A stretch of 64,000 bases of DNA from Candidatus Gastranaerophilales bacterium (GTDB taxonomy: Bacteria; Cyanobacteriota; Vampirovibrionia; Gastranaerophilales; Gastranaerophilaceae). The notes below the pieces were generated by a model. That model was not told where the DNA came from and did not search any database. It was given only the letters and a program-made list of their open reading frames with translations. The position numbers were made by a program, and so were the translations under genes. The stretch covers positions 1-64,000 of the forward strand of contig CALUWE010000001.1 of assembly GCA_944324425.1 (NCBI GenBank), given 5' to 3'. Below, one piece after another: positions 33,954-53,802 of the stretch. Each line of letters opens with the position of its first letter. Positions within the stretch are counted from its first letter, which is position 1.

Positions 33954-35399
33954 GCTTTTGTTTTTAAATCTTCCTTCAAGAAGAAAGTAAATAATATAAA
34001 AAACAAAAAGCAATAAAACCATTTGAACAGGCGCAGAAATTAATTCTGTTTTATGAATTAAAATATATATGCCATATAACATCAAAAAGCCGATTAGCAT
34101 TTTCAGTATCTGTTTTATCGGATATTTTAAATTCAAATTCGGCAAAACAATAATGGCAGATAAGAAATAATAAAGAAAATTAGCGGACAATGTTGCAATT
34201 CCAACCCCAATAAGCCCCATTTTCGGTATAAGAAGAATATTGATTCCGATTCCTATAATTCCTGAAATTATTTTAATAACAAAATCAATGTAGGTTTTAT
34301 TTGCCAAATGGTATTGAAGAGTCGTATAATCGGTTAAACCCATAAAAAATGTGCCAAATGCAAAATACGGAACAAGTTTATAAGCTTCTAAAAATCTTGA
34401 ATCCGCAAGAAGGCTAACAAATTCTTTCGAATAAATTGACATTAAAAATATAATAGGGAGTGAAATTAAAATGTAATAGCCCGTAATTTTTGAAACAATA
34501 TTTTTAACTGCAATTTTTCCTTCGTACATTCTTATAATTCTCGGAATGGCAGCAACCGTTATTATTGAAAAAATCGTCATTAATAAAGGCAAAGTAACCC
34601 CGTATGCAACACCGACATAGCCGAGTTCTTTAAAGCCTTTTATATCATTTATGATAAATTTATTGCTTTGATTAATTATCCAAGTACTAAGAGACGTTAA
34701 GGCAATAGGAACACCGTATTTTGCAATCGGCAAAATATATTTCATCTCAGGTTTTGTAAATTTCAGATATGAAAAAATATTGCTTTGAAAAATAAGCAAA
34801 ATATCAATCAGAGTTATTGAGATTCCCATTGCAAGAAGCAGAGAAAACGCACCTAGGTGAAATGTTTTTATAATAAAAACAGAAAGCCCGATTGTTAAAA
34901 TTTGATTTAAAATTGTTGAAAAGGTAAAGGCAATGGGTTTTAATTGCGCCCTTAAAATTTGGAACAACAATGCCCTTATTGCAACAGGTATAATTAAAAC
35001 CAAAATTGCAAGAAGATAAACCGGTGTTATTTTAAAAAAGGAATAGAAAAAATCCTTCAACAAAAAAGAACAAATATACATTAAAATCAAATTGATTGAT
35101 AAAATGGTTATCAAAATAGAGAGATATTTTGTAAGGTTATTATTTATTTGTGCAAACCTAAAAAATCTTAGGCCCGATAAGCCCACCCAATCTGAAAAAA
35201 TAATGCACAGGAAAGACAAAAAAGCCACGGACAATGTATATAGCCCGTATTGTTCAGGGGGAAGCAGGGATGTGTATATCGGAATAACTATTGCATTGCC
35301 CAATGTTCCGCATATTTTAGATGGGGCATATTTAAACATATCGCCCCATATTTCTTTTATTTGTTTTTGTTCTTCCTCTTTATTTTCTATATATTCCAT
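33942..35399 (-). CDS. MOP-type polysaccharide flippase (Wzx/oligosaccharide flippase-like)
   Basis: 485 residues from the ATG at 35399 (a TTG lies one codon earlier). About 12-14 membrane helices in the polysaccharide-biosynthesis transporter pattern; the first segment (APSKICGTLGNAIVIPIYTSLLPPEQYGLYTLSVAFLSFL) is typical of Wzx proteins. It would flip a lipid-linked glycan across the inner membrane. The N-terminus is a short charged cytoplasmic tail. It lies 19 bp after the tpsA-type adhesin stop on the same strand, so read-through of the adhesin transcript is possible. Confidence 0.88.
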   Translation of the reverse strand: MEYIENKEEEQKQIKEIWGDMFKYAPSKICGTLGNAIVIPIYTSLLPPEQYGLYTLSVAFLSFLCIIFSDWVGLSGLRFFRFAQINNNLTKYLSILITILSINLILMYICSFLLKDFFYSFFKITPVYLLAILVLIIPVAIRALLFQILRAQLKPIAFTFSTILNQILTIGLSVFIIKTFHLGAFSLLLAMGISITLIDILLIFQSNIFSYLKFTKPEMKYILPIAKYGVPIALTSLSTWIINQSNKFIINDIKGFKELGYVGVAYGVTLPLLMTIFSIITVAAIPRIIRMYEGKIAVKNIVSKITGYYILISLPIIFLMSIYSKEFVSLLADSRFLEAYKLVPYFAFGTFFMGLTDYTTLQYHLANKTYIDFVIKIISGIIGIGINILLIPKMGLIGVGIATLSANFLYYFLSAIIVLPNLNLKYPIKQILKMLIGFLMLYGIYILIHKTELISAPVQMVLLLFVFYIIYFLLEGRFKNKSLIQ

Positions 35400-35418
35400 C
35401 AAATTTAAGCCGTTTTAT

Positions 35419-38400
35419 TTATCTTGAAGATGTTTGCAGGTTATCATTCTTTTCTGCCATAAACATATTCATGTATAGAATTTTGTTTGCAGTTGATTTA
35501 TCAAGATTTATAAACTTCATGCCGGCGTTGTTCCCCGTAACCCTTACAACTTCAACTTCGGGTGAAACATCCATACCATGGCAAGATAAGGAAACAACCA
35601 TTCTTTCACCAACCTTTAATGAACCGTCATGGGTTACCGATATACCGCCCCTTGAAATATCAACAATTGCGATGATTCTCGGAGTTTTTTGTTTTTTCTT
35701 TTTGTCTAAACCAATGCCTGAATCTTCAAGTACATTAAACCTGATAAATTCTCTTTTTGTAGGCTTGTATGTAGATTTGTCAATATCTGCAAATTCAGGC
35801 GTTGTTGTTGTTTTTTGAATTTTGTCGTCTTTGTATGTTAACCTGTAAAAACTGTTTTCTGTTCTTGGTAAATTAACAACTTCATACGGGTTATAGTGAA
35901 CAACAGGGGCTTTTGTTTCAAGCGCAATCAAATTGCCCATTGAAAGTGCAAACGAACCCGTTAATTTTGTGTAAAGTTGTGATGTAACAGGAATGCCAAA
36001 ATCGTTTGCAATATTTCTGTGATAGTCATTATCAACAATTGTTAGCCACCTGTAACCGTTTTCAGGGTCAATGTAGAAGCCGCCCGGTTCACCTTCTCGG
36101 TTGCCGTTTCTGAATTCTGCATAATTTGTAATAAAGGTATCCGACATATGCAAATTCAAATCTTTTGTATCTACATAAGCATTATCCGTGTAGAATTTCA
36201 ACAATTCCATGCCACGGTTATCCAAAGGTGCGTTTTCACCGGAATTTAGCGACAAAGTTACGTCTTTTGCTTTATATACGGTTTCTTTAAAGCCAATCGG
36301 GTTATCAAATATTTCTATTGTTTGAACAACATCTTGTGCTTTATAGTTTCTTTGTTCTTCTTTGCCGCCTGCATCTTTAACGTTATCCGGCGAAACTCCT
36401 TGAATATCAAACACGAGTTTTTCACCGTCGCCAACGGTATTAAACCCTGAAGCCTTAAGATCTTTTGGTGCATTCGGGTCTGTAAAATCGTTTGCATACA
36501 TTCTTCCGTCTTGAGCATCAAAACCATTTGGTCTTAGGGCATTTGAAACAGGAGAGCTTGCAGCGTCATAAGCATGAGCTATAACATTATCCGCTCTCAA
36601 GATTACATCCGCCGTTCCGTCATTTTTACCTTCAATATAGGCATTATAAATATTTAAAGTTGAATTTGCATCGTTTGGATCTATTCTTGTTGCAGGGTTT
36701 ATATCCAAAACATGGATTTCTGTCGCATCCGGAACAACTGTCGACATAAGAATTTTGTCGTGAGGATATAAAATATCTTCTTCAGCTCCAAGAAGATTTG
36801 TTAATTTACCCAAATCATAAATGGTTAAATTAGCGGCCTTTGAAACAATTTTTAATGTTCCGCCTGCGGTAATTTCTCTGATTGTCGCATTGCCTGATAA
36901 ATCTAAGCCTAAATTGCCTCTTTTTGCAATTAACTGCCAAATATTATCATTGTTTCCCATGCCTGTAATATAAAGGTCATTTTCAGCCATTGCACTTATT
37001 GTGCCGTTTTCTAATTGGTTATATGTAAATGAATTGCCGTTTTCACCAATATTGTTGCTTGAAATAAGTGAAATGTTTCTGCCTTCAACATTTGCAACAT
37101 TTTTATTGTTTGCGGCATTTATTATTGAATAGCCCCTATAATATGCTTCATTATTCGGATTTGGGGTTTCTTCATCTTTTTGTTTCCAATCTGCGGCAGT
37201 TAACATAACATTACCGTCTGATTTTATGCTGTTAACTTTCAAATCGGAATTTTTAGCTCTCAAGTTAACAAGGGCATTACCGTTATTTTTAGCATCAACC
37301 TTAACTTTTCCTTTAACATTTACGTTAATTGATTCCGTATAATCTCTTGTTGAAGCATTGATACCAAAGCCTGATTCTTTATTTTCAAGGTTATGTGTGT
37401 CTTTTCCTATATTGCCGCCATTTGTTGTAATGGTTAGGTTTTCACCTGCATTTATAAGTGTTTTATAAGCATGGTCAGGGTTTCCTAAATCATGGTTTTG
37501 GTTTTTATTGTTTGTATCAGGGTCAATAATGCCGTTTAAAATGTTTCCGTTTGTTTGGTTAATTTCAATATTTCCTTCGTTTGCCAAAATATAGTTATCG
37601 TTATCTGTTGCATATTCGCCGATTTCAATGTTTGAATTTTGGTTATTTATAACAATATCTTTGTTTATTGCATTTATTAAACCTTCAACATCAATGCCTG
37701 CTTCTTTTTGGCCATTATTTGTAATATTAATTTGGCCGTTGTCATTAATAATTCTTCCTATTGTAGAAATTAAAATTCCTGAAGTATTTGTTTCATTCAA
37801 GTTTTTAACGGTTGTTGCACCAAGTTTATTGTTAATTAAACCGTCAATAGTAATACCTAAACCGCCATTGTTTTGAACAAACAGTGTTCCGTTTGTATTT
37901 GTAATTGAACCTGTTTCATTAACTTTAATTTCTGAGGTTGCACTTTGGTTTATATTGGTTACTTTTGTATTACCTTTATTTTTATTAAATATTGTGCCAA
38001 AAATATCCAATACACCTGAACTATTATTCTGAACAAGCAAGTTATCTGCTATTTCATTAGATTCATTTGAAACTTCGGCATTTTCATTAATTGTTAAATT
38101 GCCGTTTGTATTTGTAACGGAAACAATTGAATTATTTCCATCACCCTTAACAATGCCTTCAATTTCAACTCCTTTTGAACCTGAATTTTTTACTTCCAGA
38201 TTATTACCATAGTTTTCAACACTTCCATCTATATATAATTTTTCGTTTTGGTTATCAAGAGTTAATTTGTTGCCTGTATTTTTAATCAAGCCCGAAACAG
38301 TTGCACCGCCATCGCCTTTATTTGTAACGGTTAAATTGTTGCCCGTGTTTTGAACAATACCCAAGGTATCTACAAGAAGTTCGCCGTTTTCATTTAAAAT

Positions 38401-41400
38401 TTCAACATCACCGTTAACACCATCAACCAAACCTTTTATGGTTGTGCCTGTGCCTGTTGTATTATTTAATTTTATTGTGCCGTTTTCACTTTTTACTTTT
38501 CCTGTTTCATTAACAAGCAATTCGCCGTTTTTGTTTGTAACAGTTAAAATCCCTGTTGTATTTTTTAATGTACCGTTTATGATTGTGCCGCCTAAGCCTT
38601 CATTTGTGGTTGTTAAATTGCCGTTTGTGTTTTGAACAATACCGTCTATTACAATGGATGAACCTGTATTTGTAATTGAAGAATTGCCGTATGTATCAAT
38701 TGTAGCAATAATTTCGCCTGTTTCAGAAAGTTTTTCTTCAACCTTTACACCGTTTTGGCCTGAAATATTTAGTTCTGAAACATTATCGCCATTAATAAAA
38801 CCAAAGCCTGATTTTATTTGGCCTAAAATATCAATGTTTCCTTTTGATGATATTTTCGTTGTTGCTTTATTTGAACCTTGGTTAACAACATTTGTGATTG
38901 TTCCTTTGTTTGCAAAAGAACCGTTTTGTCTGTTATTTTCCAAACCGTTTATAACAAGCTGTTTATCTGTTTGGTTATCTATGTTAACGGTTGCATAGCC
39001 GTTTGTATAAGTAACTTTGCCGTTTCCTGTTACTTTGCCTGTTATATTAACATTTCCGCCTTCAGTTTTTGTATTAAATACAAGAAGCTTATTATCTTTA
39101 TATAAAACTTTAATGTTATTTGTCGCGTTTAAATATGGCGATTTATCAGCCCCGCCAAGGTTAACCATATTCCTTTCGCCCGTGTTCGGGTCAACAATTA
39201 AATTGTTTAACATATCGTTTGTTATGGTTAAGTTTCTGTTGCCATAGCCTGCTTTAATTGTGCCGTTTATTTTTGCTTCTTGAACATTTATGTTAACATT
39301 TTGGCCTGCAATAATTCTGTCATTGCTATTTAAAGTGAATACGGTTGTCGGAACGTTATATTCAAAGTTACCTTGTGTTGCAACAATATCTTTAGAGCCT
39401 GATGTTAAAATGTTATTAAAAATAACATCGCCGCTTTCGTTCCAAATTTTTACAGGGTCGCCGCCAAGCGTAACCGTGCCGTTAAATATAATGTCTGAAG
39501 CAACAGGGCTTGATAAAAGAGGATTTGAATGGTCAAAATAATTATTTATTACAATTCCTTTTATATCGCCTTCCGTAACCAAATAAACATTATCCGCAAC
39601 CGGAGTTGTTGTATTTGCAAGGTGGTTATAGTTTGTGCCGTCTATAATTAAACCTGTCGGGCCATAGCCGTTTACAAGGTCAATATTTTTGAATATAAGG
39701 TCTCTATTTGAATAGTTATCAATTCCAAGGCCTGCACTTGCAAGTATAAATTTGCCGTCGCCATTAATATTAATGACTTTTTTGCCGTTTTCTTCTTTTG
39801 TAATACCGTTAATTTCAATTTTAGAGCTTGGAATATTGAGGTTTGCAAATTCAACTGCCGCCTTTTTAATAACTAAATCTGACAAGGGGTTTTCTTTTAA
39901 ATATGCAATTTGATTATTAACGGATGTTAAAGAATCATTCAGAGTTTCTAAACTTTCTTTGTAACCCTTATTTGCATTTTCGAAATCTGCAATAACGCTT
40001 GCAAGTTCGTTTTTGCCTGCGGTTAAATTGTTTATTGCATCTGTTTTAGCTTTATCATCATTTCCTAAAAGAATTTTTCCGTTATATAAAGAATATTCAT
40101 AACCGTCTATTGTTTTAGTTGAAAATTTGCCGTTTGCTGCATTATAAGCAGTTTCAATTGCGCTTACTTTTTTATCAAGGTTTTCTTCACCATTTAATAC
40201 TTCTTTTGCAACTTCTGTTATGCTTGCTGTATTTTCGGCTCCTGTATCCTTATTCGGGTTTGCTTTTTCCCAAATTTTATCAAAGAGTTCTTGTGAAATT
40301 TTATTTTCACCTTCGCCAACAACCGCATTTTGAACTTCTGATTTAAATTGGTTTTGAGCATCTGTTACAGAAATTGCATTATTTATATTGTTTAATAAAC
40401 TTGTAAGTTCATTAAGCGAAGTTTTATATTCTGCAATTAAAGCGTCGTTTTTATCTGCCTGCGCTTTAAGTTCATCAATTTTTTCTTGCAGCTTATCAAC
40501 TTCACCTTCTAAACCTTTTATTGTGTCTTGAGTTAATTGTTCGCCTGAAACATTTGATGCATTAACAAGTTTATATTCATCTTGCATAAAGCCTTTTAAT
40601 TTATCCATATCGATATTTCCGTCTTTATCGATATACATATATCTTTGGGCTGCAATGCCTGCTTTTATAACACCATCCAATTGAAGAGAATTGCTTACAT
40701 TTTGAGAAATTCTTGAATATCTGTTTACAACATGAATCGGAATGCCGAATAAAATTCTGCAGGTAAGGTCTTCCACCATATCTGATGTTATTTTGTTATT
40801 ACCTGATAAATAGTTAACAATAACATCTTTATTTGAAATAATATCTGCATCTTTAGCAACATTCATGTGGTTATTCACGGTATATTTAACCAGGCCGTCA
40901 ACTGCAGATGTTGGAATAGCAGCATCAACTTTAACTTTAACATCTTGATCTAAAATGTTTGTTGATTTTTTCATAAAATCAAATTGAGCAAGGGTATCTG
41001 CTTTTATGTGGCCTTTGTTATCTATTGTGTTATTAATGGTTAATGTGATATTTGATTTGCCGTCAATATCTCTGAAACCAAAATGGCTTGCATCAAGGTT
41101 AACATTGTTTGTAAGTTCATTTGAAGAATCAAGAGCAATGTTTAATGTATCCGCACTGACTGTCGCATTATTTAAAACATTAAATTTATTGTTGTTTGTA
41201 ACGGTTAAATTAGAAAAGCCATCTACGTTTGCAACAAACCCTGAACCGCTTGCATTTAAACTTTGGCTAAATTTTGAATCTGTATCAACATTGATGTTCA
41301 TATCTGAAGTTGCATTTATAGTTGAATTATTTACATTTACTTCAGATGTTTGAGAAACGGTGTTGTTTATATTTGTTTCTTTCTCAACTATGCCGCCTGC

Positions 41401-44400
41401 AGCTCTTATTGTATATGCTATATTTTCATCACCTTTTGTGCCTATTTTTGCGGTTGATGAAATATTAACATCACTTGCATTTATATTTGAACCGTTTTGA
41501 ATATTTACTTTTGAATTTGATGTAATGTCATTATACAAGCTGCCGCCCGAATTTACATAAACACCGCTTTGTGTGGATTTACGCTTCATTAAAACTCTGT
41601 TTTCATTTGTTGCGGCAAGTTTAAATTCGCCTTTTGAATTTATTTTGGCGCCATTTACATTTATGTTATTTGAAGCATTTAAAGTGTTGCCTGAAGTATT
41701 TTTTGAAATTGCAGCCAACGCTTTGTTGTTTTCACCCGTTACGGATTCTGCCGTATTAACTGCATTTGCAATAACCGTTAAACCGTTATCATAGTTTTCA
41801 TTTGTTGCATTTGCAGCTATATTAACGTTTGAATCACCCGTTGTTGATGTTGTTATTTTGAACACACCCACATCAACAATTGCAACAATTGCGCCTGAAT
41901 TTGATTCAATTGAATTATATGTATCTCTGTTAACGGTTGATTTAACATCCATATCACTCATTGCAAGAGTGCCGTTTATATTTATTGTTGTATCTGTATC
42001 AACTTTTGAAACGGATTCATTAACTGCAGCTCCAACAAGGCTTAATTGCATATTTGTTATTTGAGCATTTGTATCAGCGTCATCTGTTAATTCAACAATT
42101 GCATTACCGATAATAGTATTATTTCCAGCAATATTAACTGTATTAGAACCTTTTGCAGTTGCATTCATGTTTAGTGTCTGAACTTCTACTGCGCCTATAT
42201 TAGTATTATTCGAACCTATAACAGCATCTCTGTCTGCCATAGATTTAATGTTCAGGTTATTTGTTGTAAAGTTGCCCGTATTTAATTTTGCTTCCGTTTT
42301 TGAATTAACGGTTGCATTGAAGTTAGACACCTTAACATCTACAAGAGCAAAACCTGTTCTTTGAGCTTTAATTTCAGCTTTCATTGATGCAGCTTGATTA
42401 TTATTTGATTTTTTAACACCTGATAAGATGTTTGTTGTTCCTTTGTTATTAATTTTTATATTTGAATTATCAATTCCTGCTAAAAATTCGGAATTAACGG
42501 AAGCGCCTTGATTTGCAACATCAACCGTAATTGCCGAATAGCTGCCCATTTTCATTGTTGTTGTTGCATTTACACCATCAGATGATGCAATTAAATTCAT
42601 ATTGTTTGCATCAATTGTGCCTGTTGCATTAATTAACGCTTTTGTAATTGCATTTGATTTTGTTCTGTTAACAGGAACACCGACCGTTAAGCCGCCGCCT
42701 TGTTCCGTATCTAATTTAGAAGCTAAATTGCTTGCATTTGAAGCATTAATGTTAACATCATTTGCATCTATATCAACACTGCCGGACACAAGTGATTGAA
42801 CATTATTATTTGTATCAGCAACAGCAACAGAAACATTAGCGCCTGCAACTGAACCTAATATGCTTAAAACATCTATATCAATATTATCGGTTGAATTTGC
42901 GTTAACCGTTAAGTTTCCTTTTGTATTAATAACGCTGTTTGCCGCTTTTGCAATTGTTTCAGATGCATTATTAAAGTAGCCGACACCGCCTTGTATGCCT
43001 GCCAAACCAACACTAGCTTGATTAACATCAATATCCGCCTTTACGGTTGAATTGGCATCAATTTTAACATTGCCTGAATTTGCGGTTATTTTGCCGCCTT
43101 CAATCGAAGCGTTTGTTTTATATTTCATATCAGTAGCTAAAACGTTACCGCCAACAGCAGCACCGCCAACCGAAACGCCTGTATTTGAAATTTTGAATGT
43201 GTCTGAATTATAGCCTTTTAAAGTGTTGGTTGCGGCAACTTTTATTGCATCACCGTCCGAATTTTTGCCTGTTGCGGCTACGTTGCCGTTAATAGTTGCC
43301 TTTGTGCCTTCTTTAGTTGTTCCTTGTGTTAGATTATAAGAAGCGGTTTTTGTTTCACCGTTTTTATTATATTGAATGTTGTTTGAATTAGGATTAATTT
43401 CACCCAAAGAACCATTTATATTTGCTGAATTTAACTCTGAAGCGTTTGAAAAATTAACTTTTGAGCCGAATGAATTTACAACAACATTAGCGGCAATACC
43501 TGCTATGCCGCCTGCGGCTGAAACTATTGAATTATCAGCCCCAATAGTTGAATTTGCAAGAACTTCCAAATTGTTTGCATTAATTTGGCCGTTTGAATTT
43601 GTTAATAATTCCGCAATAACCGCATTATTTATAACATTTACATCAACCCCTGCGCCAATTGCACCTGCCGCAAGAGAAATTAAGCCCAATTTATTGTTTA
43701 ATAAAATGTTATCATCCGATGAAACAAGAATTGAACCAGTTGAATTTATTGTTTTATCTTTTGAATCAATATAGGCTTTTGTTGTATTTTCAATAACATT
43801 TACAATTGCGTTTGCACCGATTGAAGCACCAAGCCCTGCAGCTGCAACACCCATATTTGTATTTGTAAGGTTTTCAATGCTATCTGCAACAACCGAAATA
43901 TTTGAAACATTATCAGCCGATGTATCAATAATTCCGGATGTTAAATTATTTTCAAAAACATTTACTGCCGTATTTACAATAGCTGTTGCCCCTTTAACTG
44001 TTCCTGCAACAGCATAGGCATTATTATTAATGTTTGAATCCTGTTTAGCAGATGTTGAAATGCTGCCATCTTTAATTGAAGAATTTGAAATATTTGCGCC
44101 GACATTATTATTAATTGTATTTACAAGAACATTAGCCAATCCGCTTACGCCAATTCCGGTAAGACCGCCTGAAGCAAGGCCGTTTAAAATATCAATGTCA
44201 GATTCTGCAATTAATGAGGTTGATTTGGCATTTGTTAATTCTGTGCCATTTATTGTTGCATAAATATCATTATCAAAAATGTTTGCAATTGTATATCCGC
44301 CAATGCTTGCACTTGCAATAGCGGCTGAAACACCTGCAATACCCGCATTAACATTTGCTTTTGTTTTTGCTGAAAGGCTTGTTGCAGCATTATTAACTGA

Positions 44401-47400
44401 GCCGCCTTCAATTTTTGCTTCTGTTTTACCTGTAAATTGGTTTATAACGGGAATTACATTAACCCCTGCGCCTGTATTTGCAATTGATGCTGCAGCTAAA
44501 ATGTCATTTATATAAACAGAATTTTGAGCGTTTACATTAACACTGTCTGCATTTAAGATGTTTGAATTTATAACGTTTGCAATAACGCTGTTTTCGATTA
44601 TATTGGCATTTTCAATTGCACTAACAGAAGCCCCTGCACCAACTGCAGCAGCTACACTGAATACAACCGAATTTAAGTTGAATGTATCATTTGCACTAAC
44701 TTTTACATTACCTTTTTCAACCGTTGAATTTTGAACAAGAGCTTTTGTTTCGCCTGAATAAATGTTATTAACGCCTGCTAAACCAACGCCTGCTGTTGTT
44801 GCAAAAGTTGTGCTTATAATGGCGTCATAGGTGTTCATTGTCGAATTTGCTTCAACATTAAGGCCGTTTGTTGTTGAAACGGTTGCATTATTAACATAAG
44901 CATTTACTGCGGTTGAAACAACATTTGCAATAACATTAGCACCAACGCTTGCAGTTCCGCTGCCTGAAGCGTTTACAATACCCACTAAAGGCATTAAGGC
45001 GGCAACATCACTTTGGTTTATAGTGTCTTTATTAAATAATGAACCGATTCCGTTTGTTTCTTTATCTTTATTGAAATCATTATTTGCTTCAACATTAATT
45101 GAGCCGTTTGATGTTTTTAATGTTGTATCTTGAATACCTGCATTTACTTCAGATGCCATTGTATTTGAAACAGCAACGCCGTCAACCGCAACAGTTCCTG
45201 AAGCTGCAACAAGCGCTATATTTGCTTTAAAGTTTTGAGCGTCATTTGCTTTAATGTTAACATCTTTGCCGACACTAATTTCACCTTGTTTTTGACCGCC
45301 GGTTGAATTGTTGCCCACAATTGCATTAACTTTATTTGCAAGAACATCAACAAAAACAGCTCCGCCGACAGCGGCTGTTCCTGCGGCATTAACACCCAAA
45401 TTCAAAGTTTCGACATCCATTGTATCGCCTGCTAAAACATCCAATGTGCCGTTTGATTTTATTGTTGTGTTATTTCCAATATATGCGTTTGTTGAATTTG
45501 CAATTATATTTGAATTAATTGAACCGTTAACGGCAGCCGTTCCTGCGGCACCAATTATAAACATAATTGATTTATAAATTTGAGATGAAACCGCATCAAC
45601 TTTTATATTGCCGACATTTGAAATTGTGTCTATTTTTGCACCATTTGCAATATAAGCATTAACATCGGCCGAATTTACATTTGAAAATACCGAACCGCCA
45701 ACTGCAGCTGTTGTTGCGCCTGTAATGTTTCCTACAATTACATCCGCAACCGTTTTATTTGAAGCTAAAACATCAATATTTCCTGCATTTTGAATTTCAA
45801 CATTTGACCCTATATAAGAATTAACTTCGTTCACAACGGTTTTTGAAATTAAAGAGCCTGAAATTCCCGCAGTATTGCTGCCTGCAATATCATAGGTCAT
45901 ATCCCAGTTTTCAAAACCGTCTGAATTTGTTATGTCTTCGCCGTTTTGAACTTTGTTTGTAAGAGAGCCCAATGTAATTTCATTCGGGTTTTCTGCGCCG
46001 AAGATATTTTTTGCACTTGCGTCAACTTTAACGTTTCCGCCGTTTTGGATTGTTGCATTATCAATATGGGCATCAACATTTTTTGTATAAACATCAGCTA
46101 AAATTGCACCGCCAACAGTTGCCGTTCCGCCTGATGCTGCAATTGTTCCGCCTCTTGAACTTGATTTTGTATTATCTGAAGCAACTACATCAATGTTATT
46201 GGCCGAAATTGTTGATTTTTTACCTGAATCGTTTTTATCAATTTTGGCTGATGTACTGTTACTTACAACATTAACGCCCACATTAGCGGCACCTGTTACC
46301 GTGCTTGAACCTGAAATTGCAGCAGCAACCGGAATTACATCAATTGTTTCATCCGTTGTTGATTGAACGGTTAATTTGCCGCTTGATGTTACATTTGAGC
46401 CTTTTATTTGAGCAACATTATCACTTGATAAAACATTCGATAAGACATTTGCACTGATTGTTGCAACGCCTGAATTAGAGCCTGCACCTACAAAAGTTAT
46501 TCCTTGAATTGAATTGTCATAATCTGCAATAACATTTGTTAAACCTGAATTATTAACCGTTGAAGACTCTATTGATGAAATTATATTATTATTAACTACA
46601 TTAACAATACCGTTTGCTGAAGCAGGAATGCCTGAACCTGTTTGTATTCCCATATTTATGGCAAGGAATTTTAAATCTTCATTATTAGATGTTTCAACAT
46701 TAACATTGCTTGCGTTTTTAATATCTGAATTATTTGAAATTGCCGCTTGAATATTATTATTTATAACATTTACAATAGCGCCCACACCAACGCCTACGCC
46801 TGTTGCAGCAGATGAAAAACCAAGAGCTCCTGCAATGTTGCCGTTATTAAAATTGTTATTTGCAACAACATCAAGGTCTCCTGTTGAATCTATGGTTGAA
46901 TTATCAATAACATCAAGGTTTCCTGTTGAACCTATGGTTGAATTATCAACAATTGCACTTATTGTGTTGTTAACAACATCTGTTCCCATTGCACCTTGGA
47001 AAGTATAGCCGCTTTGGGCACCTGCAATAACAGCACCGCCAACGCCAACGGAAATTAAATCTTCTGTTTTTTGGTTTTTGTCTTTATTTGCAGTAACTTT
47101 AACGGATTTTGAATTTTTAATATCCGAATCGTTTGTAATTTGGGCTTTTGTTTCTTTTGTAATCAAGTTAAGATTGCCGCCCATGCCGGCACCCACGGAT
47201 GTATTTCCCGCTTGAGCAACATTAACGGACAATCCGCCTGCACCTTTATATGAGGTTGAATGATTTTCAGCGTCAACATTAACATCAATATTATTTATGC
47301 CGTTTGATTGTTTAACTTTTATATTGTTTGCTTCGGCAATAACTTTGTTTGTTAATATATCTGTGTTAAAAGAACCGCCTGCAGATACTTGTGTTGCAGT

Positions 47401-50400
47401 ATCGCTAGTACTTGTTTTTGTAACGCCTGCACCTATTGCAACTTGAATGTTATCATTGTTTTCTTCTGCCAAAATATTTAAAAGGTTGTCGCCATCGCCT
47501 GTAAAAGTAACATCAGCACCATTTATTAAGGATTGAGTTTGGTTATTATTTTCTATTAAATTAACCGCTGCACCGGCACCCACTGTTGAAGCATTTGCAA
47601 CACCCCCACCAATATTCAGCACATTTGTTTCTTGGTTTGCTTCAACATTAAGATTGTTTTTAACGGTAATTTTTGCATTGCCAACTTCCGCTTTAACATT
47701 AGAATTATTCAAATGAACATTAACAGAGCCTGCAGCAGCAGCTGACATATTATTTGATGCTTTTTTAGTATTGTCTAAATTTGCTTTTTCATTGCCTAAA
47801 GAACCTTGATATTTAACGCTGTTACCGCTTGAATCCTTTAAAACGTTTCCTTTTCCGTCATGGTATTGGCCGTTTAAATCGGTTACATATTCTTTGCCAT
47901 CAACTTTAATAATGGGTCTTCCGTGCTGATCTAATTTTTGAGAAGTTTTAGATGCACTATCTGCTTTTGCTAACATTTCATCTGCTTTTGTTGCAGAATT
48001 GCTTGTTTTATCCTGCCAAGAATTTAAAAGGTTTGTTTTGCCGTTTGCAGATTGAGTTGAAGCTGAAGAACTGTCGCCTTTATCTTTTTTAAGTTTTACA
48101 CCGCCTGCAAATGCACCTGCCAAAGCTAAATTTAATGTTTGATTTAAAGTGTCTGCTTTAACATTCAAATCATTATTAAGAGTAATTTCAGCATTATCTG
48201 CAATAAGAGCGTTAACTTCTTTTTGAATATCTGAAACTACAACTGATGCGCCAATTGCAACACCGCTTGAGCTTGTTTGTGAAGGGTCGCTTGTTGTGCC
48301 TTTTTGGTTCGAAAGTGCACCTGTTATTGTAATATTTGAAATACCATCCGTAATGTCAACAGGGGAATCTACCGCAATTAAGCCTGTTTTTTCATCTAAT
48401 TCCAAAAATCTTCTTATTTGAGGTGATGATAAGTCAACATCATCTGTAATGATTTGATCTTCTTCATTTTCAAAAGGATCTGTTATAAATTGGTCAAAAG
48501 ACCTTTTTGCCGTTGAAATTGAAGCCTTTCCTGCAGTTACATCCAAATTATTAGCACTTATTATGGTATTATTGCCTATTGAAGATTCAGTTGTTCCTTT
48601 TAATTCTTGAACAACTGTGCTGCCTGAAAAAGCAAGCCCTTGTTTTGTTGAGCTTCCTGTTATTGCGGCGTTAATATATGATTGTTGATTAGCAGAATTA
48701 ACTTTAACATCGCTTTTTGAATCAATAACAACATTTTCACCTATTTGTGCTTTTGCGTTATTAGTTACATAAGTTACAATGCCGCTTCCGCCAACACCGC
48801 TTGATTCACCGGTTGCACCTGAAATTTTCCATAGTTTTGATAAATCACCGGAAGCGTTATTTTGTATAATTTTATTTGCTGCATTAACTACAACATTTCC
48901 TGTTTCTGTAATTTGTGCACCATTGCCTATTCTTGCAATCGTATCGTTTACAACTTCAGAATACACAAATGAGCCTGCAAGGCCTACTCCGCCATCTTTC
49001 ACTTTTGAAGAACTTTGCGCCCAGTTATTTGTAAAGCCTTTCAAGCCAAGATGCGAAATGGCACCGGATTGTTTCAAACCAAGTTTTATATCTTTAATAT
49101 CAGCTAAAATTTCTGCTGAAGTATCACCAAACATTGCTTTAAGGCCGGTTAAATCCCAAGGAGCATTTGTATTAAGTTCAAATGAACTTACATTATCAGC
49201 TAAAGCGCCATCCGGCAAAACCAAATCTGTTCCAAGTTGTGCCAAACTCAAAAGAAATTCAAAAGTGGCCTCATTCATTGGTTGTTCTGTTGTAGCGTTT
49301 ACATTAAGACCATTTGCAGCTTTTATTTTTGCTGAATTTGTGCCGTCTGTATCTTCAATTTGTGCTTTTGCACTGTTATTTTGTTCATTTACAATAACTG
49401 CAACCCCCGGAGCAGGAACATAACTTGCTGTTTTATTATCGCTTGCTTTTGCAGTTGCACCGTTTATTGTCATATCAACTATATTTGAATTAATGTTGAC
49501 TTTATTTGCAGTTATATCTGCTTGATTGCCAACTGTTGCAGTCGCATTGTTGTTAACAGTATTAACAACAACCGAACCGCTTGCATTTGGGGCAGCATCT
49601 GCAATAAAGGTGCCCAACAAACCGCTTATTTTGCTTTGAATTTGTTCAACAGCTTTTTGAGCCTTTCCAATCATAGTGCCTTTTAACCCTGAATTAATTG
49701 CGCTATCCAATGCGCCACTTTTGGGTTCAGAAACAGAAGCGGTTGAGTTAATTGATGCAACATGGAGATTTTGCGCATTAACGTTTACATCGCCATTTGC
49801 ATTTATTTTATTGTTTATTTTTGCTTCGGTATTAATATCTGCATTTCTGATTGCAGCCGCTATTGAAAATGAAGGGAGAGAATCATCAGGAAACATGGTT
49901 GTTTTTGCAGCCATGTTAATAAAATCGTTTGTAACATTTACCGCGTTAACATTAATGTTATTTGCCGTAATTTTTGCACCGTTTTCAATTACTGCTTTTG
50001 TGTCTGCTTCGGTTGTTGTGTTTAAAATAATAACCTGCCAATTAGGCATAATTGCCTGATCCAGCATTGTGGTAACGTTTTTTATCTTCGCCCAAAGTGT
50101 ATTTTTTGAAGTTGCATTTGCAACAAAATCATTGCTTGCTTCAATTACGGCGCCATTTTGAACAACAACGTCTGCTTGGGTTTTTGTGCCGAGCGCATAA
50201 TACATTTCCGCAATATCTGCAACTTGAACTTTTTTTGTATATTTCAAAGGGGCAACTTTTATATTTGATGTTGCAATTGCAATTGCATTTAATAAAACAT
50301 CGCCTGATGCATATAATTCAGCGCCATCACCTATTGTTACTGTTGCTTTAGACCTTGCGCCTTCCCAGTTTGCATATCCATTTGAAAGCAACTGCCCCAA

Positions 50401-51582
50401 AACCGTAGAATCAGGATTTGTAATATAGTTAAGTGAAGGAGCACCTTTTTTTGCATCGTAAACAACCTTTGTTGTTGCAGAAACATCTATATCATGGGCT
50501 TTTAAAATTGCATCTTCTATTATGACAGATGAAGCATTGTTTTCAAAAGAATCAGGGTTAACAAAAGCATCATCCGGCTTTTGAATTATGCCGTTTGCAA
50601 GCATATTTTCTATAGTTTGGCCATTTTCTTCATTCAAACCTTCAGAGGGAATATCAGATTCTTTTATATCTTCATTTGTAATATTTTTTATAGATTGCGC
50701 TTTGACTATTATGTTCCCTTGCTTGTCAAAAGCGTTTGCATTTTTTTCATCCGTATTTACAAGAGCATTAAATAAATTATTAGCGGCTTCGACTGTTGTT
50801 AATTTAATATTTGCATTATTAAAATTTTTGTTTACACCTGCAAGAATACCGGCCTTTTGTGCATTTGGGTTGTTTGGGTCTTTTCTTACGGTAATATTTT
50901 TACCTACAAGTTCAACATTTCCTCTTGAAATAATTTTGCCGTTAACATCAATATTCCCTTGTTGGTCGCCATTTTTTAAAGTTACATTGATGTCGTAATC
51001 CGCTTGTTCGGCATCTGTTCTTGTTACAGTTTGATAGTTTTCATTTATATAAGAATCATTGACAATATTTAAAACCGGTTCGTATTGGCCATTAGTAGTG
51101 TTTAATTGATAATATCTGCCTCTAACTGATTCATAGTTTGCCCGAGTAGGCGCAATTGCAGTTAAGGCACCTACATTTAAAACACCCGAAGCACCAATCA
51201 CCATGCCTTGCGGAGAAACAAAAATAGCATGCCCGCCTATATCGCCATTGCTTAAAACGCCGTTTAAAAGGCCATTTATTATGATTTGATTATCTACAAG
51301 GTTTACGAATTTTTCAACAGGGATTTGGCCGTTTTTTACAAGAAAAATAAGGTTTGCAATGTCACCTTGACTAAGGTTAAAATTTTCATAGTGTCTAAAA
51401 CCCATATCGCCATGGACAAATTCAGGGTGAATATCATAATGGCCTGTGCCTTGCGTTGGATTAATGCCTGATATATCTGTTGCTAAAACAGGAATGCATA
51501 AAGTTTGTTGAAATAAAAACAACAGGGTTAACATGCCTGTTATATATTTTTTGCAACCCTTATTATTGACACTTCTTCCCAT
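35419..51582 (-). CDS. Giant TpsA-type filamentous adhesin with C-terminal PilZ domain
   Basis: 5387 residues in one unbroken frame. A signal peptide (cleavage predicted after Ala34) is followed by a TPS secretion domain (about 36-175) with FNLSQGDIANL, the IIINGLLNG turn and FVSPQG (121-126); this resembles the LktA-like filamentous adhesins. Residues ~180-3600 are Asn/Ala/Gly-rich beta-helix-type repeats (pattern: NIDVNANNT...AKIGNNSTIN...). Residues about 3680-3900 form a coiled-coil segment, and about 4270-4640 a regular ~24-residue module. A PilZ domain occupies 5271-5375. The SD AAGG precedes the ATG at 51582. Its likely exporter is the divergent TpsB gene. It should extend as a long surface fibre for adhesion or aggregation. 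The PilZ domain is unexpected for a secreted protein. Confidence 0.93.
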   Translation of the reverse strand: MGRSVNNKGCKKYITGMLTLLFLFQQTLCIPVLATDISGINPTQGTGHYDIHPEFVHGDMGFRHYENFNLSQGDIANLIFLVKNGQIPVEKFVNLVDNQIIINGLLNGVLSNGDIGGHAIFVSPQGMVIGASGVLNVGALTAIAPTRANYESVRGRYYQLNTTNGQYEPVLNIVNDSYINENYQTVTRTDAEQADYDINVTLKNGDQQGNIDVNGKIISRGNVELVGKNITVRKDPNNPNAQKAGILAGVNKNFNNANIKLTTVEAANNLFNALVNTDEKNANAFDKQGNIIVKAQSIKNITNEDIKESDIPSEGLNEENGQTIENMLANGIIQKPDDAFVNPDSFENNASSVIIEDAILKAHDIDVSATTKVVYDAKKGAPSLNYITNPDSTVLGQLLSNGYANWEGARSKATVTIGDGAELYASGDVLLNAIAIATSNIKVAPLKYTKKVQVADIAEMYYALGTKTQADVVVQNGAVIEASNDFVANATSKNTLWAKIKNVTTMLDQAIMPNWQVIILNTTTEADTKAVIENGAKITANNINVNAVNVTNDFINMAAKTTMFPDDSLPSFSIAAAIRNADINTEAKINNKINANGDVNVNAQNLHVASINSTASVSEPKSGALDSAINSGLKGTMIGKAQKAVEQIQSKISGLLGTFIADAAPNASGSVVVNTVNNNATATVGNQADITANKVNINSNIVDMTINGATAKASDNKTASYVPAPGVAVIVNEQNNSAKAQIEDTDGTNSAKIKAANGLNVNATTEQPMNEATFEFLLSLAQLGTDLVLPDGALADNVSSFELNTNAPWDLTGLKAMFGDTSAEILADIKDIKLGLKQSGAISHLGLKGFTNNWAQSSSKVKDGGVGLAGSFVYSEVVNDTIARIGNGAQITETGNVVVNAANKIIQNNASGDLSKLWKISGATGESSGVGGSGIVTYVTNNAKAQIGENVVIDSKSDVKVNSANQQSYINAAITGSSTKQGLAFSGSTVVQELKGTTESSIGNNTIISANNLDVTAGKASISTAKRSFDQFITDPFENEEDQIITDDVDLSSPQIRRFLELDEKTGLIAVDSPVDITDGISNITITGALSNQKGTTSDPSQTSSSGVAIGASVVVSDIQKEVNALIADNAEITLNNDLNVKADTLNQTLNLALAGAFAGGVKLKKDKGDSSSASTQSANGKTNLLNSWQDKTSNSATKADEMLAKADSASKTSQKLDQHGRPIIKVDGKEYVTDLNGQYHDGKGNVLKDSSGNSVKYQGSLGNEKANLDNTKKASNNMSAAAAGSVNVHLNNSNVKAEVGNAKITVKNNLNVEANQETNVLNIGGGVANASTVGAGAAVNLIENNNQTQSLINGADVTFTGDGDNLLNILAEENNDNIQVAIGAGVTKTSTSDTATQVSAGGSFNTDILTNKVIAEANNIKVKQSNGINNIDVNVDAENHSTSYKGAGGLSVNVAQAGNTSVGAGMGGNLNLITKETKAQITNDSDIKNSKSVKVTANKDKNQKTEDLISVGVGGAVIAGAQSGYTFQGAMGTDVVNNTISAIVDNSTIGSTGNLDVIDNSTIDSTGDLDVVANNNFNNGNIAGALGFSSAATGVGVGVGAIVNVINNNIQAAISNNSDIKNASNVNVETSNNEDLKFLAINMGIQTGSGIPASANGIVNVVNNNIISSIESSTVNNSGLTNVIADYDNSIQGITFVGAGSNSGVATISANVLSNVLSSDNVAQIKGSNVTSSGKLTVQSTTDETIDVIPVAAAISGSSTVTGAANVGVNVVSNSTSAKIDKNDSGKKSTISANNIDVVASDNTKSSSRGGTIAASGGTATVGGAILADVYTKNVDAHIDNATIQNGGNVKVDASAKNIFGAENPNEITLGSLTNKVQNGEDITNSDGFENWDMTYDIAGSNTAGISGSLISKTVVNEVNSYIGSNVEIQNAGNIDVLASNKTVADVIVGNITGATTAAVGGSVFSNVNSADVNAYIANGAKIDTISNVGNIKVDAVSSQIYKSIMFIIGAAGTAAVNGSINSNIIANSTNAYIGNNTTIKSNGTLDVLAGDTMDVETLNLGVNAAGTAAVGGAVFVDVLANKVNAIVGNNSTGGQKQGEISVGKDVNIKANDAQNFKANIALVAASGTVAVDGVAVSNTMASEVNAGIQDTTLKTSNGSINVEANNDFNKDKETNGIGSLFNKDTINQSDVAALMPLVGIVNASGSGTASVGANVIANVVSTAVNAYVNNATVSTTNGLNVEANSTMNTYDAIISTTFATTAGVGLAGVNNIYSGETKALVQNSTVEKGNVKVSANDTFNLNSVVFSVAAAVGAGASVSAIENANIIENSVIANVINSNILNADSVNVNAQNSVYINDILAAASIANTGAGVNVIPVINQFTGKTEAKIEGGSVNNAATSLSAKTKANVNAGIAGVSAAIASASIGGYTIANIFDNDIYATINGTELTNAKSTSLIAESDIDILNGLASGGLTGIGVSGLANVLVNTINNNVGANISNSSIKDGSISTSAKQDSNINNNAYAVAGTVKGATAIVNTAVNVFENNLTSGIIDTSADNVSNISVVADSIENLTNTNMGVAAAGLGASIGANAIVNVIENTTKAYIDSKDKTINSTGSILVSSDDNILLNNKLGLISLAAGAIGAGVDVNVINNAVIAELLTNSNGQINANNLEVLANSTIGADNSIVSAAGGIAGIAANVVVNSFGSKVNFSNASELNSANINGSLGEINPNSNNIQYNKNGETKTASYNLTQGTTKEGTKATINGNVAATGKNSDGDAIKVAATNTLKGYNSDTFKISNTGVSVGGAAVGGNVLATDMKYKTNASIEGGKITANSGNVKIDANSTVKADIDVNQASVGLAGIQGGVGYFNNASETIAKAANSVINTKGNLTVNANSTDNIDIDVLSILGSVAGANVSVAVADTNNNVQSLVSGSVDIDANDVNINASNASNLASKLDTEQGGGLTVGVPVNRTKSNAITKALINATGTIDANNMNLIASSDGVNATTTMKMGSYSAITVDVANQGASVNSEFLAGIDNSNIKINNKGTTNILSGVKKSNNNQAASMKAEIKAQRTGFALVDVKVSNFNATVNSKTEAKLNTGNFTTNNLNIKSMADRDAVIGSNNTNIGAVEVQTLNMNATAKGSNTVNIAGNNTIIGNAIVELTDDADTNAQITNMQLSLVGAAVNESVSKVDTDTTININGTLAMSDMDVKSTVNRDTYNSIESNSGAIVAIVDVGVFKITTSTTGDSNVNIAANATNENYDNGLTVIANAVNTAESVTGENNKALAAISKNTSGNTLNASNNINVNGAKINSKGEFKLAATNENRVLMKRKSTQSGVYVNSGGSLYNDITSNSKVNIQNGSNINASDVNISSTAKIGTKGDENIAYTIRAAGGIVEKETNINNTVSQTSEVNVNNSTINATSDMNINVDTDSKFSQSLNASGSGFVANVDGFSNLTVTNNNKFNVLNNATVSADTLNIALDSSNELTNNVNLDASHFGFRDIDGKSNITLTINNTIDNKGHIKADTLAQFDFMKKSTNILDQDVKVKVDAAIPTSAVDGLVKYTVNNHMNVAKDADIISNKDVIVNYLSGNNKITSDMVEDLTCRILFGIPIHVVNRYSRISQNVSNSLQLDGVIKAGIAAQRYMYIDKDGNIDMDKLKGFMQDEYKLVNASNVSGEQLTQDTIKGLEGEVDKLQEKIDELKAQADKNDALIAEYKTSLNELTSLLNNINNAISVTDAQNQFKSEVQNAVVGEGENKISQELFDKIWEKANPNKDTGAENTASITEVAKEVLNGEENLDKKVSAIETAYNAANGKFSTKTIDGYEYSLYNGKILLGNDDKAKTDAINNLTAGKNELASVIADFENANKGYKESLETLNDSLTSVNNQIAYLKENPLSDLVIKKAAVEFANLNIPSSKIEINGITKEENGKKVININGDGKFILASAGLGIDNYSNRDLIFKNIDLVNGYGPTGLIIDGTNYNHLANTTTPVADNVYLVTEGDIKGIVINNYFDHSNPLLSSPVASDIIFNGTVTLGGDPVKIWNESGDVIFNNILTSGSKDIVATQGNFEYNVPTTVFTLNSNDRIIAGQNVNINVQEAKINGTIKAGYGNRNLTITNDMLNNLIVDPNTGERNMVNLGGADKSPYLNATNNIKVLYKDNKLLVFNTKTEGGNVNITGKVTGNGKVTYTNGYATVNIDNQTDKQLVINGLENNRQNGSFANKGTITNVVNQGSNKATTKISSKGNIDILGQIKSGFGFINGDNVSELNISGQNGVKVEEKLSETGEIIATIDTYGNSSITNTGSSIVIDGIVQNTNGNLTTTNEGLGGTIINGTLKNTTGILTVTNKNGELLVNETGKVKSENGTIKLNNTTGTGTTIKGLVDGVNGDVEILNENGELLVDTLGIVQNTGNNLTVTNKGDGGATVSGLIKNTGNKLTLDNQNEKLYIDGSVENYGNNLEVKNSGSKGVEIEGIVKGDGNNSIVSVTNTNGNLTINENAEVSNESNEIADNLLVQNNSSGVLDIFGTIFNKNKGNTKVTNINQSATSEIKVNETGSITNTNGTLFVQNNGGLGITIDGLINNKLGATTVKNLNETNTSGILISTIGRIINDNGQINITNNGQKEAGIDVEGLINAINKDIVINNQNSNIEIGEYATDNDNYILANEGNIEINQTNGNILNGIIDPDTNNKNQNHDLGNPDHAYKTLINAGENLTITTNGGNIGKDTHNLENKESGFGINASTRDYTESINVNVKGKVKVDAKNNGNALVNLRAKNSDLKVNSIKSDGNVMLTAADWKQKDEETPNPNNEAYYRGYSIINAANNKNVANVEGRNISLISSNNIGENGNSFTYNQLENGTISAMAENDLYITGMGNNDNIWQLIAKRGNLGLDLSGNATIREITAGGTLKIVSKAANLTIYDLGKLTNLLGAEEDILYPHDKILMSTVVPDATEIHVLDINPATRIDPNDANSTLNIYNAYIEGKNDGTADVILRADNVIAHAYDAASSPVSNALRPNGFDAQDGRMYANDFTDPNAPKDLKASGFNTVGDGEKLVFDIQGVSPDNVKDAGGKEEQRNYKAQDVVQTIEIFDNPIGFKETVYKAKDVTLSLNSGENAPLDNRGMELLKFYTDNAYVDTKDLNLHMSDTFITNYAEFRNGNREGEPGGFYIDPENGYRWLTIVDNDYHRNIANDFGIPVTSQLYTKLTGSFALSMGNLIALETKAPVVHYNPYEVVNLPRTENSFYRLTYKDDKIQKTTTTPEFADIDKSTYKPTKREFIRFNVLEDSGIGLDKKKKQKTPRIIAIVDISRGGISVTHDGSLKVGERMVVSLSCHGMDVSPEVEVVRVTGNNAGMKFINLDKSTANKILYMNMFMAEKNDNLQTSSR
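35458..35772 (-). other. PilZ domain at the C-terminus of the adhesin
   Basis: Residues ~5271-5375. The c-di-GMP motif RxxxR is R5277-E-F-I-R5281 (KREFIRFNV) and DxSxxG is D5308-I-S5310-R-G-G5313 (VDISRGGISV). The remaining strands (VGERMVVSLSC, VEVVRVTGNNAGMKFINL) follow the PilZ barrel order and end in a helix (KSTANKILYMNMF). The match is by motif and pattern, not a database search. No start codon or gap suggests a separate gene. Confidence 0.85.
37650..38760 (-). repeat. Regular ~24-residue repeat module in the adhesin
   Basis: Residues about 4274-4644 repeat the pattern G-x-V-x-N-x-x-G-x-L-x-V-x-N-x-G-x-G-G-x-x-I-x-G-x-I, e.g. around GNLTTTNEGLGGTIINGTLK, NNLTVTNKGDGGATVSGLIK and NNLEVKNSGSKGVEIEGIVK. 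A right-handed beta-helix register is implied. Copies are divergent at DNA level. Confidence 0.7.
39880..40545 (-). other. Coiled-coil insertion in the adhesin
   Basis: Residues ~3680-3900 depart from the Asn/Gly-rich beta pattern: strongly helical, charged heptads such as LEGEVDKLQEKIDELKAQAD and ELASVIADFENANKGYKESL. It could be a stalk joint, an oligomerisation element or a region folded outside the fibre. Confidence 0.75.
46869..46952. repeat. 42-bp perfect-frame tandem duplication in the adhesin
   Basis: Two adjacent 42-bp units (46869-46910 and 46911-46952) differ at 3 positions. They encode DNSTIGSTGNLDVI and DNSTIDSTGDLDVV. A recent in-frame duplication within the beta-helix. Confidence 0.9.
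51078..51582 (-). other. Signal peptide and TPS secretion domain of the adhesin
   Basis: Residues 1-168. Hydrophobic signal core (ITGMLTLLFLFQQTL, cleavage near VLA-T), then the beta-helical TPS cap recognised by the POTRA domains of the TpsB partner. FNLSQGDIANL and FVSPQGMVIGASGVLNVGAL are the diagnostic strands. Confidence 0.85.
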
Positions 51583-51750: not shown

Positions 51751-53802
51751 ATGCGGAATAAAAAACAACATACCATGCTTTTAGCGTTGGTATTCTTGCT
51801 TTTAGTTGCGGACGGTGCGGTTTTTGCAGACCCTATAAATGGCGCGATTCCTGCAAATTTGAATTACGGCGGAGTGATTAACACTCACGACATGATGATT
51901 TTGAAAGAAAAACAAAGGCTTCTTGAAGAAGAAAGGGATTTTCAAAACTACCAAGAAAGAAAAAAAGGCAAAAAGAACAAAGAAAAAGTCATAGAAAATG
52001 CCCCTGATATTGATCAAACAGGAGCGGAAAAAATATATGATGCCGAAACTTCCAAAAAAATAAAGGAAGAAGAGGCTTTGCTTCAAAATAAAAAAAGTGA
52101 AAGAAAATTCTTTTTTTTTAAAAGAAAAAACAAAAAAGAATCCGATTCCGAAGTAAAAGTAAGTGATACAAAAGACGGAAGCGAAATTACAAAAACGGAA
52201 AAAGAAACCGTTGTAACGGCAGGGGTTGAAAAAACAGATATTGAAGACGGCAAAATTTATGTAAGGGCAGTTGCTGTTTCCAATTCTCAAATTTTAACGG
52301 ATGAAGAAATTCAAAGAATAACCGATATGGTTATAGGAAAACAAGTTACTATCGATGATCTTAACAGAATGATTATCGAATTTAATTATGTTTATGCAAC
52401 CAAAGGCTATGTAACGGCAAAAGCGTTTTTGCCCCCGCAGGAAATTAAAGAAGGGATTGTAAAAGTTAAGCTTGTTGAAGCAAAAGTCGGGCAAATAAAC
52501 ATTGAAAACAACAGATGGACAAGTGATTCTTACATTGAAAAAAGAATTTCCGCAAGAGAAGGCGAAATTTTTCAGATAGTTGAACTTGAAGAAGACATTG
52601 TTAAATTTAATAAATATAATGACGGCATTAAACTAAAAGCAAACCTTAAAAAAGGCGAAGAGCCTGAAACCACCGACATTGTGCTAAGTGCAGATGAAAA
52701 ATTCCCGTTTCACGTTAGAGGGCTTATGGATAATGCGGGAAGAAAAACAATCGGCGAATTAAGGGGCGGCTTAATGCTTTCTGCAGACAGCCTTTTTAAA
52801 CAGAGAGACAGATTTGCAATGGGCTCTTATGTGAGCCGCCACTCTGTTACCCCATTTGCGGATTATAACATTCCCGTTAACAAATATGACGGCAGAGTAG
52901 GCTTCCTTTTTTCATCCAGTATGGCTGAAATTGGCGAAGGACCTTATAAAATTTTCGACATTGAAAGCAGATCTTTTAACTATTCACTGTATTACACCCA
53001 CCCCCTTATAAGAAAACCGACATTTGAATTAACAAGCTATTCTGCGGTTAATTACAAATCGGCAACCACTTTATTTGGCGGGTATGAAATTAATAACGAT
53101 AAAATTACAAGCTTTGAAACATCCTTGAGTGCAAGGTTAGACACCAAATACGGTATTTGGTATTTAAACCAAGGGGTGTATCAGGCATTCCCCATTTTTG
53201 ACGAAGCCTCAAGATATTTTAAATATACAGGCAGCATTATAAGGCTGCATGATTTCGGCCACGGCATTGTGGGGCAATTAAGGGGAATGTATCAATATTC
53301 GCCAAAAGATGTTATGCCCTACATTGACCAATTTCAAGCAGGCGGTATTGCAAGCGTTAGGGGCTATTCAGAAGGGCTTTTGATCGGGCGTTCAGGGTAT
53401 GTTATAAGCGGAGAATTATTATTCCCAATCCTGCCGAGCAAAATTACCGTAAAAAAGAAAGATACCAAAGAAAAGAAAGTGTTCCCCTTCCTTGGCAAAT
53501 ATGTTAAAGGTATTGTGTTTGTAGACCACGCGGGCGTTTTCCCCTTTAAAGGCAAAGGCCCCGGCGCTCAAACGTATGACCAGAGCGACTATATGGTGAG
53601 TACAGGCCTTGGGCTTAGGGTTTCACTCCCTGGGGATATAACCGCAAGGCTGTATTGGGGTTTTCCTTTAATGCACAACCCGCATGAAACATATTACAGA
53701 AACCCAAGGTTCAGTTTTGAGCTTTCCTTCGCACCTGATTTTGATAAACTGCTCAAATTCAGGAAAACCTTGAAGAATAAAGAAAAACCCGAAGACCTGT
53801 AA
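51751..53802 (+). CDS. TpsB/ShlB-type outer-membrane secretion transporter
   Basis: 683 residues. Signal peptide with cleavage after Ala26 (LLLVADGAVFA), then an unusually long Lys/Glu-rich, probably disordered or coiled region (about 45-150, including two runs of Phe/Lys). A ShlB-type POTRA domain (about 160-240) has VRAVAVSNSQILTDEEIQRI and GKQVTIDDLNRMIIEFN, followed by a second POTRA-like region. The C-terminal 16-stranded barrel includes the VRGY motif (~536-539), the plug/lid signature of Omp85 two-partner transporters. It should secrete the divergent TpsA-type adhesin. Divergent rather than operonic placement is unusual. Confidence 0.92.
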   Translation: MRNKKQHTMLLALVFLLLVADGAVFADPINGAIPANLNYGGVINTHDMMILKEKQRLLEEERDFQNYQERKKGKKNKEKVIENAPDIDQTGAEKIYDAETSKKIKEEEALLQNKKSERKFFFFKRKNKKESDSEVKVSDTKDGSEITKTEKETVVTAGVEKTDIEDGKIYVRAVAVSNSQILTDEEIQRITDMVIGKQVTIDDLNRMIIEFNYVYATKGYVTAKAFLPPQEIKEGIVKVKLVEAKVGQINIENNRWTSDSYIEKRISAREGEIFQIVELEEDIVKFNKYNDGIKLKANLKKGEEPETTDIVLSADEKFPFHVRGLMDNAGRKTIGELRGGLMLSADSLFKQRDRFAMGSYVSRHSVTPFADYNIPVNKYDGRVGFLFSSSMAEIGEGPYKIFDIESRSFNYSLYYTHPLIRKPTFELTSYSAVNYKSATTLFGGYEINNDKITSFETSLSARLDTKYGIWYLNQGVYQAFPIFDEASRYFKYTGSIIRLHDFGHGIVGQLRGMYQYSPKDVMPYIDQFQAGGIASVRGYSEGLLIGRSGYVISGELLFPILPSKITVKKKDTKEKKVFPFLGKYVKGIVFVDHAGVFPFKGKGPGAQTYDQSDYMVSTGLGLRVSLPGDITARLYWGFPLMHNPHETYYRNPRFSFELSFAPDFDKLLKFRKTLKNKEKPEDL

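Follow-up and report, generated by a model that had tools for sequence, protein, structure and literature searches.

A giant two-partner-secretion adhesin of Gastranaerophilales ends in a PilZ domain that may act outside the cytoplasm

Introduction

Receptors for the second messenger cyclic di-GMP (c-di-GMP) are generally taken to be cytoplasmic. On which side of the inner membrane, then, would a PilZ domain work when it forms the end of a secreted adhesin? The question is raised by a 64,000 nucleotide stretch of DNA (here the window; contig CALUWE010000001.1, positions 1 to 64,000, assembly GCA_944324425.1) from a Candidatus Gastranaerophilales bacterium, in which the gene for a giant filamentous adhesin of the TpsA type, the exported partner in two-partner secretion (TPS), terminates in a PilZ domain. 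A sequence-only reading of the window had proposed that this domain remains in the cytoplasm and stalls Sec export on binding c-di-GMP. We tentatively favour a different arrangement, to which we give slightly less than an even chance, namely that the PilZ domain at the C-terminus crosses the inner membrane and acts in the periplasm.

If true, a secreted PilZ lineage carrying a nucleotide-binding motif would mean either that a second-messenger receptor exists beyond the cytoplasm or that secretion is regulated in a new way from within the cargo. The carrier is a large and mostly uncultured gut lineage, and next to nothing is known of its surface biology; the PilZ domain is small (110 residues) and so easily purified and assayed. 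The open-access literature that we searched held no paper on a secreted, periplasmic or extracellular PilZ domain and none relevant to a TpsA protein with PilZ, in keeping with the sequence-only reading, which knew of no described fusion with such a role.

Results and discussion

The adhesin and its PilZ tail

The adhesin is encoded by a single unbroken frame beginning with ATG, and the features on which the argument depends are as follows.

35419-51582, minus strand: giant TpsA-type filamentous adhesin gene, PilZ at the C-terminal end, 5387 residues
51481-51582, minus strand: signal-peptide-like N-terminus, residues 1-34, by a hydropathy and charge rule
51091-51438, minus strand: LktA-type TPS (secretion) domain NF012204, residues 49-164
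35758-35871, minus strand: hyperconserved linker (LPRTENSFYRLTYKDDKIQKTTTTP...), residues 5238-5275, conserved as protein with synonymous sites heavily changed
35479-35757, minus strand: PilZ domain PF07238, residues 5276-5368
35740-35754, minus strand: RxxxR motif (REFIR), residues 5277-5281
35644-35661, minus strand: DxSxxG motif (DISRGG), residues 5308-5313
51751-53802, plus strand: TpsB transporter (POTRA_2 and ShlB), divergent from the adhesin gene, the start of which is 168 bp away

The TPS domain matches NF012204 at 114.8 bits (cut-off 60), and the 53-residue repeats of NF012206 are matched as well. The POTRA_2 and ShlB domains of the divergent transporter match at 56.9 and 74 bits, and an orthologue of this TpsB adjoins the giant TpsA-PilZ genes of relatives. 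By its signal-peptide-like start (called, as throughout, from hydropathy and charge with a simple rule in place of a trained predictor), its TPS domain and its cognate TpsB, the protein is a predicted TpsA (type Vb) adhesin that would be secreted via TpsB.

A PF07238 search of the last 148 residues gives 33.3 bits (E 6.6e-8), above the gathering score of 22.5, placing the PilZ domain within the final 112 residues. The continuous frame, the N-terminal signal peptide with its TPS domain and the C-terminal PilZ domain that the sequence-only reading described are thus all borne out, the two motifs lying exactly where it put them, with R5277, R5281, D5308, S5310 and G5313 as the motif residues. A genome-wide PF07238 scan, the first pass of which is a lossy filter, missed this domain and returned only the PilZ at C1:73102. 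The combination of RxxxR with [D/N]xSxxG defines the c-di-GMP-binding PilZ motif (PMC11022532).

Modelling indicates that the tail has a PilZ fold. The AlphaFold model has a predicted confidence (pLDDT) of 72-84 across the PilZ core, and its best matches in the PDB are PilZ domains, in most cases from structures that contain c-di-GMP. The top Foldseek match is the PilZ of Alg44 with c-di-GMP (4rt0, E 5e-4), while VIA comparison with the PilZ of YcgR bound to c-di-GMP gives Z 9.0 and a root mean square deviation of 3.5 over 96 residues, against Z of about 5.8 for unrelated beta-barrels. Modelling the 300 C-terminal residues added nothing beyond the core, linker and passenger part having pLDDT below 50.

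The domain belongs to the adhesin and is not a product of frame or assembly error that joined a separate gene to it, the outcome that would have undone the sequence-only reading. The same PilZ tail lies in the same frame at 12 other Gastranaerophilales loci in metagenome-assembled genomes (MAGs), with RxxxR and [D/N]xSxxG invariant, and the fusion recurs family-wide. Purifying selection acts on the tail, the ratio of nonsynonymous to synonymous divergence (dN/dS) being about 0.04-0.23 in pairs with usable dS. A separate PilZ gene read from an internal start in the linker was likewise rejected, as residues 5238-5275 contain no Met and show heavy synonymous change.

Conservation of the putative binding site

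Among 17 diverse adhesin tails (28-54% identical to that of the window) four of the eight invariant columns are motif positions (R, R, S and G), and the D is present in 94%. In the larger set used for the tree the pattern R/R/[DN]/S/G is kept in 17/18 giants, in all short members aligning there and in 10/10 secreted members. By these alignments the motif residues are among the most conserved positions of the PilZ domain, and the putative nucleotide-binding site has not decayed.

Two giant lineages, L109 and L116 (genera g20 and g21), have lost RxxxR and kept the PilZ fold, making them natural loss-of-motif tails. Their existence is what would be expected were binding dispensable, and so lends some weight to the view that the fold is a structural stopper only, its motif conserved for folding and binding nothing. 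However, the motif is kept in every other alignable giant, short and secreted member, at overall identities near 20-40%, and its loss is usual in PilZ proteins without c-di-GMP binding. We judge a purely structural stopper improbable.

Putatively exported relatives of the tail

Searches with the tail also retrieved ten stand-alone proteins of 155-238 residues containing the same PilZ lineage, which exceed the Pfam gathering score in those scanned. Six, in genus g7, are encoded directly downstream of an adhesin-PilZ gene on the same strand; two are in g26, and two in two genomes of f3, another family of the order, where the secreted PilZ is divergent from a TpsB orthologue (about 42% identical), the place that the giant adhesin takes elsewhere. 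Stand-alone-looking PilZ frames at contig ends were not counted, as they resemble adhesin tails truncated where the assembly broke within repeats.

All ten have a signal-peptide-like N-terminus, positive charge followed by a hydrophobic stretch, against 23/84 background open reading frames, and such a start is lacking in the genome's ordinary cytoplasmic-type PilZ protein (C1:73066-73677). All ten also keep the five motif residues, which in six diverse examples are within the ten invariant of 94 columns. In a maximum-likelihood tree, several inner branches of which have modest support, the stand-alone proteins fall at three separate places among the adhesin tails. Should relatives of this PilZ domain indeed be exported in several lineages, it would be simplest to suppose that the adhesin tail, too, acts after export.

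These relatives weaken the proposal of the sequence-only reading, that a cytoplasmic PilZ domain folds on c-di-GMP and stalls Sec, so that the fibre is held across both membranes when c-di-GMP is high and freed when it is low. The retained motif residues, the seven GGDEF domains of the genome, the export of the C-terminus last and the presence of long unfolded linkers that could span the periplasm are all in its favour. Against it stand the signal-peptide-like starts of stand-alone relatives that keep the motif, the lack of any stop-transfer or membrane helix found ahead of PilZ, and a point of reasoning, not data, that one jammed SecYEG per adhesin would be costly. In our view stalling of this kind is unlikely.

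The linker

Immediately before the PilZ domain of the window's adhesin, residues 5238-5262 are 99% identical across relatives, compared with 58-86% for neighbouring blocks of 25 residues. As the linker is near-identical as protein while its synonymous sites are heavily changed, selection evidently acts on the peptide and there is no sign of a conserved RNA-level signal. In 19/20 short adhesins 84-436 low-complexity residues stand directly ahead of PilZ, composed of sequence such as (DT)n, (DA)n, (DP)n or (PTG)n and ending about 17 residues before RxxxR. The repeats in L085-L104 and L123 are very long runs of mostly acidic dipeptides, differing in type between genera, and such dipeptide repeats often coincide with MAG contig ends. 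This anatomy fits a tether, as judged from sequence. No membrane anchor was found before PilZ, the hydrophobic peaks of the giants being Ala/Gly-rich stretches deep within the passenger.

A proposed exported PilZ knob

In the arrangement we favour, the passenger would pass through Sec and then, N-terminus first, through TpsB. PilZ, exported last, would fold in the periplasm as a knob exceeding the size of the TpsB pore, and the unfolded linker (low-complexity in the short members, the hyperconserved segment in the giants) would stay in that pore. With the passenger outside, the linker in the pore and folded PilZ beneath, the fibre would remain anchored. The least sure step is that a nucleotide-type ligand at the retained motif may set the stability of the knob and thereby decide between retention and release of the adhesin. 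This retention step would also be the one on which the secreted stand-alone PilZ proteins act in trans.

Several points weigh against this arrangement. With seven GGDEF domains the genome presumably does provide for c-di-GMP synthesis, but on the cytoplasmic side, and the presence of an intact motif in a periplasmic domain is difficult to account for unless its ligand is a different one or reaches the periplasm. The stand-alone proteins could function differently from the adhesin tails, and their signal-peptide calls depend on the hydropathy and charge rule; indeed, it is from sequence that we infer periplasmic location, folding, ligand binding and release alike. Furthermore, the same family contains TPS proteins without PilZ, a class of 844-885 residues and one of 2588 residues, so PilZ is not required for secretion as such.

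We consider doubtful the further step in which the exported domain is an extracytoplasmic PilZ receptor whose ligand, a cyclic dinucleotide or something similar, would be bound in the periplasm or beyond the cell, with binding determining whether the adhesin is retained or let go. This would be a one-protein, protease-free version of c-di-GMP-type adhesin control that senses the outside instead of the cytoplasm.

Alternatively, PilZ might be fully secreted and displayed at the surface as an adhesive module for a host or microbial ligand such as a phosphate-rich polymer, an extracellular nucleotide or a glycan. Secreted stand-alone relatives exist, and the linkers, long and flexible, are reminiscent of surface-protein stalks. 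In addition, in two close pairs (L003 and L004, L012 and L013) synonymous divergence rises sharply from the upstream part to the PilZ tail, as if the tails had been exchanged by recombination. However, the linker and PilZ occupy the last-exported end, which stays periplasmic in the studied TpsA protein CdrA, and the motif is nearly invariant, whereas variation would be expected of a module exposed to host pressure. A surface module therefore seems rather improbable to us.

Comparison with known systems

The nearest precedent for a periplasmic knob is the CdrA/CdrB system of Pseudomonas aeruginosa with LapG/LapD, in which the periplasmic C-terminal tail of CdrA keeps this TpsA protein at the surface until, at low c-di-GMP, it is cleaved by LapG (PMC5422565, PMC8472254). 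Both are TpsA adhesins, surface-held in CdrA by a periplasmic C-terminal element with retention tied to c-di-GMP, features that we only propose here. In CdrA the tail forms a disulfide hook and is cleaved by LapG, which LapD controls in trans, whereas in the adhesin described here a PilZ domain itself forms the tail. LapG (PF06035) was found in 0/97 family genomes, the Caulobacter control being positive; LapG-type release was therefore rejected, and the adhesin is not a member of the CdrA/LapG system. The parallel with LapA/LapD drawn by the sequence-only reading is consequently apt as to outcome, retention versus release, but does not extend to the protease.

The LktA-family filamentous adhesins share the TPS domain and 53-residue repeats described by NF012204 and NF012206, but those models cover these parts only and neither includes a PilZ tail. 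Alg44, BcsA and YcgR provide the closest solved folds, with the same RxxxR and [D/N]xSxxG; their PilZ domains are cytoplasmic, whereas those related to the adhesin tail are parts of secreted proteins or are secreted proteins in their own right. FhaB and CdiA are likewise large TpsA proteins with a C-terminal part held back during secretion (a hairpin model is mentioned in PMC8472254), and we know of no PilZ domain or nucleotide-binding site in their C-terminal regions.

Distribution and neighbouring genes

The search for further TpsA-PilZ fusions that the sequence-only reading had advised was extended from the 12 MAG loci to the class, where the NF012204 TPS domain is found in 203/382 genomes and the PilZ-tail profile matches 157/382 (149/319 of those of good quality). 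Two dozen short adhesins (931-3025 residues) have the TPS domain and PilZ at opposite ends of one complete frame, and giants of about 5000-6400 residues with an NF012204 match terminate in PilZ. Across 292 sampled genomes of the phylum, 98 of the 99 with a match are Gastranaerophilaceae and the remaining one is a 142-residue frame, which was rejected as a TpsA-PilZ protein outside the family. At this search sensitivity the fusion seems restricted to Gastranaerophilaceae.

Six genomes of the window's own genus (G189, G216, G226, G304, G322 and G347) give no match to the PilZ-tail profile, so the locus is by this search patchy within the genus, through loss or transfer. Tandem LktA-type genes with PilZ only in the last occur at L094 (2879-17580) and L127-L131, where the PilZ-less LktA-type proteins of about 844-885 residues recur.

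At the adhesin itself no toxin or immunity genes were seen, and the phage collection searched returned no match. A polysaccharide flippase-like gene with a weak HfsF match (33942-35402, minus strand) starts 16 bp past the adhesin stop on the same strand; it was rejected as a functional partner because the pairing is shared only with the nearest relative, L002, and hence is not conserved. About 20 kb from the adhesin, at C1:70409-73677 (L024), the cytoplasmic-type PilZ gene stands in a row with histidine kinase-like and response regulator-like genes.
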